Source: Pyrococcus furiosus DSM 3638 (GTDB lineage Archaea > Methanobacteriota_B > Thermococci > Thermococcales > Thermococcaceae). From it: 64,000 nt of DNA. Below the pieces are notes generated by a model. That model was not told where the DNA came from. It saw only the letters and a list, made by a program, of their open reading frames with translations, and did no database searches. This document shows positions 30,547-57,720 of this stretch, one piece after another. Location of the stretch: assembly GCF_000007305.1 (NCBI RefSeq), contig NC_003413.1:863318-927317 (forward strand), given 5' to 3'. A program made the translations under genes and the position numbers. How positions within the stretch are numbered: position 1 is the stretch's first letter; each line of letters starts with the position of its first letter.

Positions 30547-30602
30547 CCTCAGAAGTGGTAGCTTTCATCATCTCCTCAGGGCCGGGCTCGCTCTTCATCG
30601 GC
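30547..30602 (-). ncRNA. C/D box sRNA
   Basis: On the minus strand all four boxes appear in order: C (CGATGA, 30600-30595), D' (CTGA, 30579-30576), C' (TGATGA, 30570-30565) and D (CTGA, 30552-30549). The guides are about 14 bases (GAGCGAGCCCGGCC region) and 12 bases (AAGCTACCACTT). The D'-C' spacer is five bases. This is the standard archaeal dual-guide 2'-O-methylation RNA. The bases five upstream of each D or D' box define the target nucleotides; I did not assign rRNA sites. Confidence 0.82.
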
Positions 30603-33973: not shown

Positions 33974-34091
33974 TTTTCTCGTAATTCTAGTCTCCTCGCT
34001 ACCTAAAAACCTACCGTCTATATATTCTATATACCTGAATGTATAAGTTAGGGCACAGATGTGTGCATATGAACCTAAACGAACATAAACG

Positions 34092-34280
34092 AAAAGTTTT
34101 TATATGGGCAAGTATCTTCAATATTTCCGATGATGTATATGAACAAAACAAAGATAAGGAAGAATTTAATGACTATGAAATATTACACTGTTAAGTTACT
34201 TGTCATACTGATTATTATTCTTCTTCTATGAAGTGACAAGTTGGTATTGCGCGCACCCCTAATCTTTTGGGGTGGTTTTG
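34092..34280 (+). promoter_or_regulatory. Leader region 1: promoter, leader peptide and hairpin
   Basis: AAGTTTTTATATGGG at 34093-34107 is a good TATA box. A peptide frame (34130-34231) follows. Then CACCCC (34254-34259) pairs with GGGGTG (34269-34274), followed by a T-rich GGTTTTGTC. A second perfect stem, TTTTGTC/GACAAAA (34277-34283 with 34288-34294), ends at the next possible start codon. CACCC can alternatively pair with GGGTG (34306-34310) in the ribosome binding site of the gene at 34313. The arrangement parallels the ilv leader 700 bases downstream. Confidence 0.5.
34130..34231 (+). CDS. Putative leader peptide 1, Leu/Ile/Val-rich
   Basis: Thirty-three codons from ATG 34130 to TGA. 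The last eleven residues are LLVILIIILLL, an unbroken run of branched-chain residues just before the stop codon. Shorter starts at ATG 34139, 34169 or 34175 keep that run. The hairpin follows 22 bases after the stop. A role as a sensor of charged tRNA-Leu/Ile is inferred from layout; a small membrane peptide is the alternative. Confidence 0.45.
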   Translation: MMYMNKTKIRKNLMTMKYYTVKLLVILIIILLL

Positions 34281-34312
34281 TCTCTACGACAAAAATGCTG
34301 GAGGTGGGTGGT

Positions 34313-34699
34313 ATGGAGTTCGAAGCCATGAAGAAGGTGGTTGTAGAGGCGATGGAGAACGGAGCCCAATGGGTAGCAGTGACAGTGAAGACTAGAGAGT
34401 CCCCCCAGGAGATGGTAGATAAGTTTGAAAGATTCCTAAAGGCCAGCGGTTGGAATGTGAAATTCAAAGCCAATTGGTGGTCTCCAGCAAGATATGGTGT
34501 GGCAGTTGTAGAGGCAGATAAGGATGGAAAGAGTAAGACAGTGATGATAAAGTGGGTCAATTCAAGGGAAGATAAAGTAGTAAGAGTGGAAGGTAAAAAG
34601 GAGAGTGAAGGGAAGAGGGAGTTTTACACAATAGTTGATCTAGTAAGTGATGACTTCCTATATGACAACATATTGAGAAATATGATGAATAGGTACTGA
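34313..34699 (+). CDS. Hypothetical protein behind leader 1
   Basis: A 128-residue soluble, basic protein of unknown family. The middle is tryptophan-containing (SGWNVKFKANWWSPARYG) and the C terminus is acidic (VDLVSDDFLYDNILRNM). The frame is open from TTG 34241, but GGAGGTGGG at 34300-34308 selects ATG 34313. The leader arrangement resembling that of the ilv operon suggests a link with branched-chain amino acids. It ends about 120 bases before the ilv promoter. Confidence 0.55.
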   Translation: MEFEAMKKVVVEAMENGAQWVAVTVKTRESPQEMVDKFERFLKASGWNVKFKANWWSPARYGVAVVEADKDGKSKTVMIKWVNSREDKVVRVEGKKESEGKREFYTIVDLVSDDFLYDNILRNMMNRY

Positions 34700-34849
34700 A
34701 AAGTTTGACATCTTGCTATAAATTTCCCCTTCTTTTGTTTCGAAATATTTTCTGTTAGAACTTTTTTAGTTCGGAGGTTTTTATCTAATATGTCAAAAAT
34801 TCAACAAAATTTTAGAAAACTTTTTATATATGTAACGAACCCTTAGGTG

Positions 34850-34945
34850 ATGATGAAGGTCATAGTAACACTCCAACTATCCAAGTACTTCCTACTTCTT
34901 GATGCCCTTATTCTAGCTATTATTGGGCTTATTATTCTTCTCTGA
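34850..34945 (+). CDS. Putative ilv operon leader peptide
   Basis: Thirty-one codons from the ATG pair at 34850, with GGTG just upstream. Eighteen of 31 residues are Leu, Ile or Val (10 Leu, 6 Ile, 2 Val), and the end is LILAIIGLIILL before TGA. It lies wholly within the operon leader, between TATA box and hairpin, as bacterial ilv and leu leader peptides do. Ribosome stalling on these codons would tie operon expression to leucine and isoleucine supply. This is a prediction from arrangement. Confidence 0.6.
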   Translation: MMKVIVTLQLSKYFLLLDALILAIIGLIILL

Positions 34946-34950
34946 AGGGA

Positions 34951-34972
34951 AAGGGGCAACTTCTGGCCCCTT
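34951..34972 (+). terminator. Hairpin between leader peptide and ilvB
   Basis: A perfect 7-base-pair stem (five G-C pairs) with an 8-base loop, six bases after the leader stop codon. It is not followed by a long T-run; AAAAATTTT comes 12 bases later. It may therefore act on translation of ilvB rather than as a true transcription terminator. Confidence 0.45.
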
Positions 34973-35007
34973 CTAAGCTTGTATAAAAATTTTGGGGGTG
35001 CAACTCC

Positions 35008-36702
35008 ATGGAAATGTCCGGTGCAAAAGCCCTCGTCCGGGCCCTCGAAAAAGAAGGCGTGCAACACACGTTTGGGATAATTGGTGGAAGTATAATGCCA
35101 GTGTTTGATGAACTACTAGATAGCAACATAAGACACATAACCACTAGACACGAGCAGGGAGCAGCCCATGCTGCAGATGGATACGCAAGAGTAAGTGGAA
35201 GGCCTGGGGTGGCAATAACTACCTCAGGCCCAGGGGCCACAAATCTAGTTACTGGAATAGCTACGGCATATATGGACTCATCACCTATAGTAGCATTGAC
35301 AGGGCAGGTTCCAACATACATGGTAGGAAAGATGGCGTTTCAAGAAACGGATATCATAAACATAACTAAGCCAATAACAAAGTGGAATTACCAGGTGAAA
35401 AGACCGAGGGAGATCCCCGAAGCTGTAAAAATGGCATTCACAATCGCCACACTAGGAAGACCTGGCCCTACACTAATTGACCTTCCTAAGGATGCTCAAA
35501 CAGATGTTGAAGATGTAGATTTTGACGTTGATATTTCCCAAAAGGTAACGCCCTGGAGACCACCTAAGCTTGATGCTTGCCCTGAAGAGGTAAAGAAAGC
35601 TGTTGACATGATTCTCTCAGCTGAGAGACCTGTGATCATTGTTGGTGGAGGAGTTGTTTGGTCAGGAGCAACTGATGAAGTTTTGGCTATAGCTGAGTAC
35701 TTGCTAATCCCAATAATGGCCACCTTCATGGGGAAAGGAGCCGTCCCAGAAAATCATCCACTCTACGTGGGAAATCTTGGAATGCACGGAAAAATTGCTG
35801 CAAACAAACTCCTTCCTCAGACTGATTTGATAATAGCTGTAGGAATGAGGTGGAGCGATAGGACAGTTAGCGAATTTGAGAACTTTGCTCCAGAGGCTAA
35901 GATAATACACATTGACATTGACCCGAAGGAAGTTGGGAAGAACGTAAAAGTGGACCTAGGGATTATAGGGGATGCCAAGAGAGTACTCAGGGCTATCTAC
36001 AACGAAATTGTTAGAAGGGCAAAGAAAAGAGAGAGCTGGCCATGGTTAGAGAAAGTTAGGGAATTCAAAGAGAAATATAAAGAAGAGCTAGTCCCAATTG
36101 ATGGGGACTATCTCAGACCCCCTGAGATTTTGAAGGAGTTGAGGAAGCTCCTCCCTCCAGATGCCATAGTTGCAACTGAAGTTGGACAAAATCAAATGTG
36201 GGTAGCGTTGTTCTTCCCAATACTAAAGCCTAGGACTTTCTTGACTTCGGGTGGATTGGGGACAATGGGCTTTGGCTTCCCAGCGGCCATAGGGGCAAAG
36301 GTAGCAAAGCCAGAGAAGGTAGTTGTGGATATTGCGGGTGATGGGAGCTTTATGATGTCCGAAAGAGAATTGGCCACAGCAGTCAACGAAAATCTTCCAG
36401 TAATAGTGATAATTCTCAACAACTCCTCCCTGGGAATGGTCGCCCAATGGCAGAGAATGTTCTACAATAGAAGATACATAGCTACTTATTTCAAAAAGAA
36501 TCCTGATTTTGTCAAGCTGGCTGAGGCTTATGGAGCCAATGGATACAAGGCTGAGACTATGGATGAGTTGCTCAAAGCGGTGAAGGAAGGAATGAACTCT
36601 GATGTTCCCACGGTTATAGACGTCCCAATCCATCCGGAGGATGATGTTCTCCCAATGGTTCCTCCTGGGCAACACATCTCAAACGTTGTGACAAGGTATT
36701 GA
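35008..36702 (+). CDS. ilvB: Acetolactate synthase, catalytic subunit
   Basis: A 564-residue thiamine-diphosphate enzyme that makes acetolactate or acetohydroxybutyrate, the first common step of valine, leucine and isoleucine synthesis. The substrate channel Glu lies in [24 protein letters not shown]; the ThDP motif is [29 protein letters not shown], with normal breaks. No ilvN regulatory subunit gene (ACT domain) follows; ilvC is next, so feedback control by valine may be absent or supplied from elsewhere. ATG 35008 follows GGGGGTG. It is the first structural gene of an eight-gene operon. Confidence 0.93.
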
Positions 36703-57552: not shown

Positions 57553-57630
57553 GGGCCGGTAGCTCAGCCTGGTATGAGCGCCGCCTTGGCAAGGCGGAGG
57601 CCCGGGTTCAAATCCCCGGCCGGTCCACCA
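57553..57630 (+). tRNA. tRNA-Ala (anticodon GGC)
   Basis: Cloverleaf with acceptor GGGCCGG/CCGGTCC, anticodon stem CCGCC/GGCGG around TTGGCAA (anticodon GGC), GGTTCAAAT in the T arm and encoded ACCA. No intron. The tRNA-Val follows 12 bases later, probably on one transcript. Confidence 0.95.
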
Positions 57631-57642
57631 CAAATTTTGGGC

Positions 57643-57720
57643 GGGCCCGTGGTCTAGACTGGTTATGACGCCACCCTGACAAGGTGGAGGTCCGGGGTTC
57701 AAATCCCCGCGGGCCCACCA
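57643..57720 (+). tRNA. tRNA-Val (anticodon GAC)
   Basis: Acceptor GGGCCCG/CGGGCCC, anticodon stem CCACC/GGTGG around CTGACAA (anticodon GAC), T arm with GGTTCAAAT and encoded ACCA. No intron. It is the second of a tRNA pair. Confidence 0.95.

Follow-up and report, generated by a model that had tools for sequence, protein, structure and literature searches.

The DNA upstream of the ilv/leu genes in the window, by which we mean the whole stretch of 64,000 nucleotides of Pyrococcus furiosus DSM 3638 analysed here, raises the question of whether an archaeal biosynthetic operon may be governed by a ribosome that translates a leader peptide. Ribosome-mediated transcription attenuators are known from bacteria, where they control ilvGMEDA and leuABCD in Escherichia coli and ilvBNC in Corynebacterium glutamicum, the last being the subject of PMC11857589. 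An attenuator is expected to comprise a leader frame rich in codons for the end products of the operon, a leader peptide under codon-level selection, a position of this leader between the promoter and the structural genes, a terminator between the leader stop and the first gene, and a mutually exclusive antiterminator pairing. A preliminary description of the locus proposed such an attenuator in front of ilvB, namely a 31-codon Leu/Ile/Val-rich frame downstream of a TATA box, followed by a 7-bp stem whose 3' strand could alternatively pair with GAAGGG over the leader stop codon or with the ilvB ribosome site. All of these parts are indeed present, and are listed here for what we call leader A and for the gene behind it.

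34821..34830, forward strand: TATA box of leader A, TTTTTATATA, with 19 nt from the end of the box to the first ATG
34850..34945, forward strand: leader frame A from ATG to TGA, 31 aa of which 18 are Leu/Ile/Val, MMKVIVTLQLSKYFLLLDALILAIIGLIILL
34944-34949, forward strand: GAAGGG over the stop of leader A, read from the sequence
34951..34972, forward strand: 7-bp stem AAGGGGC/GCCCCTT (34951-34957 / 34966-34972), 3' of the leader A stop
34994..35000, forward strand: ribosome site of ilvB, GGGGGTG, read from the sequence
35008..36702, forward strand: ilvB, encoding the large subunit of acetolactate synthase, at the head of an ilv/leu run that extends to 45280

The leader frame is rich in codons for the end products of the operon, and its C-terminal end reads ALILAIIGLIILL, followed by TGA. 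Scanning the window on both strands for frames that start with ATG, comprise at most 60 codons and hold at least 8 L/I/V among their last 11 codons gave three matches, and the frame in front of ilvB thereby exceeds what chance would give. The two best matches are leader A (9/11) and a further frame of this type (11/11), here called leader B, which is absent from the preliminary description and lies 81 nt 5' of a gene for a protein of 128 residues. The features of this second leader are as follows.

34097..34105, forward strand: TATA box of leader B, TTTTTATAT, with 25 nt from the end of the box to the ATG by scan
34130..34231, forward strand: leader frame B, 33 aa, MMYMNKTKIRKNLMTMKYYTVKLLVILIIILLL, ending LLVILIIILLL, stop TGA
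34254..34274, forward strand: hairpin CACCCC-TAATCTTTT-GGGGTG after leader B
34274..34284, forward strand: weak U-rich stretch GGTTTTGTCTC, 3' of the leader B hairpin
34313..34699, forward strand: conserved 128-aa gene between leaders B and A

Relatives were sought among 94 genomes of the family of a Thermococcaceae MAG (L001) that had been found with IlvB. Full-length ilvB, 82-92% identical, occurs in just 6 of the 94, the closest copy to that of the window being the one of G010 (92%), while G053 holds a partial ilvB at a contig end, and most species of the family thus probably depend on branched-chain amino acids from outside. Leaders were found in all six relatives with full-length ilvB, which, once those of the window are counted, brings the total to 13 leaders from 7 species, and the comparison of ilvB upstream regions that the preliminary description had called for finds the peptide frame to be conserved wherever a relative possesses the operon. 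Leader B has counterparts in 6/6 and leader A in 5/6 of these relatives, the exception being G001, in which ilvB closely follows the 128-aa gene, so that a tandem pair of leaders is found in 6 of the 7 Thermococcaceae. The final 7 codons of leader A differ synonymously only among the three closest species, G010, G006 and that of the window (8 changes in three pairwise comparisons), and the differences within the run of leader B are mainly swaps among L, I and V in addition to one K/R change. The N-terminal halves of the leaders are not conserved. To judge from these substitutions and from the lack of in-frame Phe codons described below, the peptide is under codon-level selection.

The 128-aa gene is present in the window and in all six relatives with full-length ilvB, its product being 43-79% identical to the window copy. 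The protein has no match above cut-off in Pfam or NCBIfam, its AlphaFold model (pLDDT 82.7) predicts an alpha/beta fold, and a Foldseek comparison of this model with the PDB gave nothing at E <=0.001, the best hit (4.4e-3) being a designed protein. Its possession of a branched-chain leader of its own makes the gene a candidate for an as yet unrecognised component of the pathway, and if the leaders work as proposed below, a role in branched-chain amino acid synthesis is predicted for it.

Leaders of this type are not confined to the Thermococcaceae. When the 700 nt upstream of 78 other IlvB loci were scanned, leaving aside L042, which has no upstream DNA, and L001, seven loci gave a match, and in five of these (L009, L014, L027, L052 and L080, all titled archaea) the match lies 13-65 nt before the ilvB match. 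The leader of L010 was missed by this first filter and was added by eye, and the filter was relaxed in later scans. In L014 the leader reads NIDVLVVPLLVLLL-stop and is followed by GCGGCC-TCCTCTCTCG-GGCCGC-TTTTTT directly before GAGGTG, and in L052 it ends GVVILVGIIVVLL-stop and is followed by AAAGGCGTTCTGCCTTTTTT. The order of leader, G/C-rich hairpin with T-rich tail and ilvB ribosome site is seen in L122 (L014), L125 (L052) and L121 (L010), with a T6 tail in L122 and L121, and to judge from their sequence these sites look like bacterial intrinsic terminators.

The search was then widened to the class of the Archaeoglobus genome G096 (59 genomes), the class of G098 (150 genomes drawn), which is probably Nitrososphaeria-like since G099, titled Thaumarchaeota, belongs there, and the order of G097 (DHVE2; 101 genomes). 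To the first 87 loci 39 further ones were added, those from the class of G098 being 20 that were hand-picked down the list. With at least 8 L/I/V required in the last 12 codons and a stop 5-130 nt before the ilvB match, leaders precede ilvB in 25/50 loci of the Archaeoglobi, 18/50 of the class of G098, 4/19 of the order of G097 and 5/6 of the Thermococcaceae, and these counts, which leave out L124 and L144 (167 nt upstream) and the weaker ilvB relatives L202-L212, do not represent independent events, the species being related, which likewise holds for the counts of boxes and hairpins given below. The 25/50, 32/50 and 15/19 loci that failed the criterion did so in some cases through shorter runs, sub-threshold runs being common there. 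For the first 87 loci the observed numbers are 5/6 in the Thermococcaceae, 15/31 in the Archaeoglobi, 15/30 in the class of G098 and 4/20 in the order of G097, against means of 0.05, 0.13, 0.3 and 0.13 in dinucleotide shuffles, 0.17, 0.33, 0.46 and 0.13 expected from random windows, and no leader at all on the antisense strand. In the Archaeoglobi the gap from the leader stop to ilvB amounts to 18-40 nt, and the shortest of these gaps leave little room for a terminator. The leaders of L128, L130, L131, L135, L136, L143 and their relatives, all from this class, end in short motifs, for instance LVLVE or VLF, followed by TAA, the last residue thus often being other than L, I or V. It should also be mentioned that L031 and L044 (Thermoplasmata-type), whose DNA is highly similar, hold a frame ending VLVDLRILRP before ilvB, which was seen by eye and stands outside the counts.

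The spacing of archaeal promoters allows transcript starts to be inferred from TATA boxes, and the placement of the leaders is telling in this respect. The best TATA-like 8-mer ends 24-29 nt before the ATG in 6 of the 7 B leaders and 35 nt before it in that of G005, and for the A leaders the distance is 19-34 nt, G023 being without a good box. In the wider archaeal set a TATA-like box is found at the right distance in 32/52 leaders, as compared to 9.1 (sd 2.6) in shuffles, although in none of the four leaders in the order of G097. Given this spacing, the leaders would be expected to start at or within some 10 bases of the transcript start, and with start sites so predicted, the leader is located between the promoter and the structural genes.

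Turning to RNA structure, the proposed three-way switch finds no such support. The 164-nt leader A region folds no better than its shuffles, 108 of 200 of which equal or surpass it (z 0.16), and the stem AAGGGGC/GCCCCTT, for which conservation in relatives had been named as a test, is missing from G010 and G006, the two closest relatives. Over the 13 leaders, duplex energies between the region before the run and that after the stop, and between the latter and the region downstream, are at shuffle level (Stouffer z 0.37 and -0.34), and no mutually exclusive antiterminator pairing common to them was found. The leader peptide of the preliminary description stands, together with its TATA placement and its conservation, but the specific stem switch must be rejected as a conserved feature, as its stem is not shared by the closest relatives and its fold and pairings are at chance. 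The pairing CTTGTCA/TGACAAG of leader B, convincing by eye, and the long complement of leader B of G005 (z -1.74, p 0.066) were also considered and were set aside, the corresponding classical pairings (1:2 and 2:3) being at chance over the 13 leaders.

Terminator-like hairpins are a different matter. They are found in 6 of the 13 Thermococcaceae gaps against 2.3 (sd 1.5) in shuffles, and in the wider set, after near-identical rows had been collapsed, 18 of 53 leaders are followed by such a hairpin with a T-rich tail, against 5.5 (sd 2.2, at most 12 in 200 shuffles). Leader B of the window is among those with a recognisable terminator, whereas leader A belongs to the 35/53 that lack one. The leader B hairpin is kept in G010 and G006, where its outer pair is A-T instead of the C-G of the window, which represents one independent change, but it is not common to the other four relatives; the U-rich stretch behind it is a possible termination region.

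We consider it likely, at a probability of about 0.8, that the two frames of the window are leader peptides of ribosome-mediated attenuation that senses the supply of branched-chain amino acids. At the level of sequence this reading is supported by the peptide, its conservation, its operon specificity, its promoter placement and the enrichment of terminator-like hairpins across the set, and from these we infer translation of the leader, stalling, the direction of the response and the type of output, be it termination (intrinsic or by aCPSF1/FttA) or translation. A ribosome would start at the AUG at or near the 5' end of the transcript and translate the Leu/Ile/Val run that abuts the stop. With plentiful branched-chain aminoacyl-tRNAs it would clear the run and depart, and the freed RNA, which ahead of the following ribosome site contains a hairpin, a stretch rich in U or CU, or both, would let transcription end or keep the ribosome site closed. 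With scarce aminoacyl-tRNAs the ribosome would instead stall within the run and hold the RNA by the stop codon, so that the biosynthetic genes would go on being transcribed or translated. Against this reading stand the lack of any classical pairing (1:2, 2:3 or 3:4) that is set apart from chance, the 35/53 leaders with no recognisable terminator, the shortest gaps of the Archaeoglobi and the loci that failed the leader criterion. The output may differ by lineage, with a hairpin and T tail in some and unstructured U- or CU-rich RNA in others, the gaps of 18-25 nt in part of the Archaeoglobi favouring control of the next ribosome site. A hairpin-free version is plausible in view of passages in PMC7515710 on aCPSF1/FttA termination at U-rich RNA in archaea and of the proposal, in a passage of PMC8116511, that ribosome coupling and aCPSF1 access may exclude one another. 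For the broader claim that archaea, namely Thermococcaceae, Archaeoglobi, the Nitrososphaeria-like class and DHVE2 relatives, own ribosome-mediated ilv attenuation with leaders starting at or near the transcript start, many of them hairpin-free and with the stalled ribosome itself controlling U-tract/aCPSF1 termination or ribosome-site access, we regard the odds as even.

The alternative that fares best is control of translation, in which the leader ribosome would occlude or open the ribosome site that follows, or feed it by re-initiation, and which would still amount to branched-chain sensing. Gaps of 14-25 nt between stop and ilvB, as found in part of the Archaeoglobi and in the class of G098, would put a ribosome beside or over the ilvB ribosome site, and leader A of G023, which lacks a good TATA box and begins 4 nt beyond the stop codon of the gene before it, would have to act inside a transcript. 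The enrichment of terminator-like hairpins (18/53) and the G/C stems with T tails after the leaders of L014/L122 and L052/L125 speak against such a mechanism, and we regard it as a serious possibility, if on balance a doubtful one.

Attenuation by leader peptides must also be weighed against the notion that the frames encode small hydrophobic membrane proteins which precede ilvB by chance. The C-terminal run does have the length and hydrophobicity needed to cross a membrane, but its composition makes this quite unlikely. In the last 14 codons of the 13 leaders L, I or V is encoded in 159 of 182 cases (I 80, L 63, V 16, A 7, G 5, S 3, T 2, K 2, D 2, R 2), and there is no Phe, Met, Trp, Tyr or Cys among these 182 tail codons, unlike in the hydrophobic stretches of window ORFs, whose hydrophobic 14-mers hold on average 6.5 L/I/V with 0 of 185 reaching 12, as 11 of the 13 leader tails do. 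In addition, the run abuts the stop, the N-terminal halves are unconserved as mentioned, and the frames keep their place just 5' of ilvB over wide distances.

Very unlikely is a U-rich RNA element, a terminator or a protein site, that merely resembles a reading frame. The runs are indeed rich in T, and archaeal terminators, as a passage in PMC7515710 has it, are rich in U, but the composition of the tails is specific to the frame, T occupying codon position 2 in 159/182 and position 1 in 8/182 tail codons, and Phe codons being absent in frame but numbering 31 in frame +1. When first- and third-position bases are exchanged within the tails, a mean of 24.8 Phe results, and never fewer than 14 in 2000 trials, where 0 are observed. 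Val is furthermore encoded by GTC in 12/16 cases, though GTT is commoner in the genes. This is part of a general preference for NNY codons in the tails, Leu being encoded by CTY in 44/63 cases and Ile by ATT or ATC in 69/80 as compared to 133/265 in the ilv/leu genes (Fisher p 2.6e-9), a comparison in which the tails come from 7 species and the gene baseline from the window alone. Such a preference would be in keeping with a leader that senses the tRNAs decoding NNY. The stop is TGA in all 13 leaders, as compared to 20 of 50 mechanical ORFs of at least 150 aa in the window, and this, like the Ile codon preference, speaks for the attenuation reading.

The leaders also appear to be specific to the operon. 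In the Thermococcaceae no L/I/V leader was found before trpC at 15 loci or before hisG at 30 loci, nor was any Trp leader (0/15) or His leader (0/30) accepted. Candidates that were rejected comprise ORFs with at least 2 Trp at 4 of the 15 trp loci, at distances from the match of 349-603 nt in three cases and of 54 nt in one, inside or beside trpC, and in the Archaeoglobi 2/30 matches at hisG, both antisense to a divergent frame that we take to be metK. At trpE of the Archaeoglobi 3/30 weak ORFs were seen, and trpE closely follows another frame in the 8 sequences inspected, which makes this gene uninformative. The absence of leaders with W or H runs at these trp and his loci argues against a device common to archaeal amino acid operons in general, and as far as tested the device belongs to the branched-chain operon. 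A few distant matches are doubtful (L169, L179) and could singly be chance, and the two hisG matches proved to be antisense, but chance or an antisense artefact can practically be dismissed for the set as a whole, being contradicted by the shuffle, antisense and random-window controls and by codon-level conservation.

The putative archaeal attenuators resemble those of bacterial ilv/leu operons in having a short leader, rich in end-product codons, directly before the operon with the control codons near the stop, and, in part of the set, a hairpin and T-rich tail before the first gene. They differ in relying on archaeal machinery, in a leader AUG that should coincide with the transcript start or lie close to it (TATA box ending 19-35 nt before the ATG), in a pure L/I/V run that abuts the stop, in the lack of any common antiterminator pairing among those examined, in the many members that are hairpin-free and in the tandem leaders of most Thermococcaceae. 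Rho-dependent leader-peptide attenuation of the tnaC type is another relevant model, as archaeal termination after the leader stop could likewise be factor-dependent and hairpin-free, with aCPSF1/FttA replacing Rho. In this case the role of the factor is hypothetical, the archaeal leaders are without an apparent inducer-binding peptide motif, and their run matches the products of the operon. Termination by aCPSF1/FttA at U-tracts would supply the step that the attenuation model needs, and the passages concerned with it in PMC7515710, PMC8448881 and PMC8116511 describe no operon-specific leader peptide. The remark in the preliminary description that no archaeal example is established agrees with a statement in PMC8448881 that by 2021 no example of archaeal transcription attenuation or antitermination was known. 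A passage in PMC13158618 mentions ilv operon attenuation in general, citing bacterial work, and among titles and abstract openings in a largely open-access body of literature we found no report of an archaeal leader-peptide attenuator. If the leaders work as proposed, archaea would use the ribosome on the nascent mRNA to sense the supply of amino acids, and the ilv/leu leaders would constitute a natural, operon-specific readout of archaeal transcription-translation coupling.

Finally, the covariance models of Rfam 15 give three matches over the gathering score in the window, none of them near 34000-35010. One is the C/D-box RNA sR47 at 30547-30602 on the reverse strand, and the other two are tRNA genes at 57553-57717 on the forward strand.
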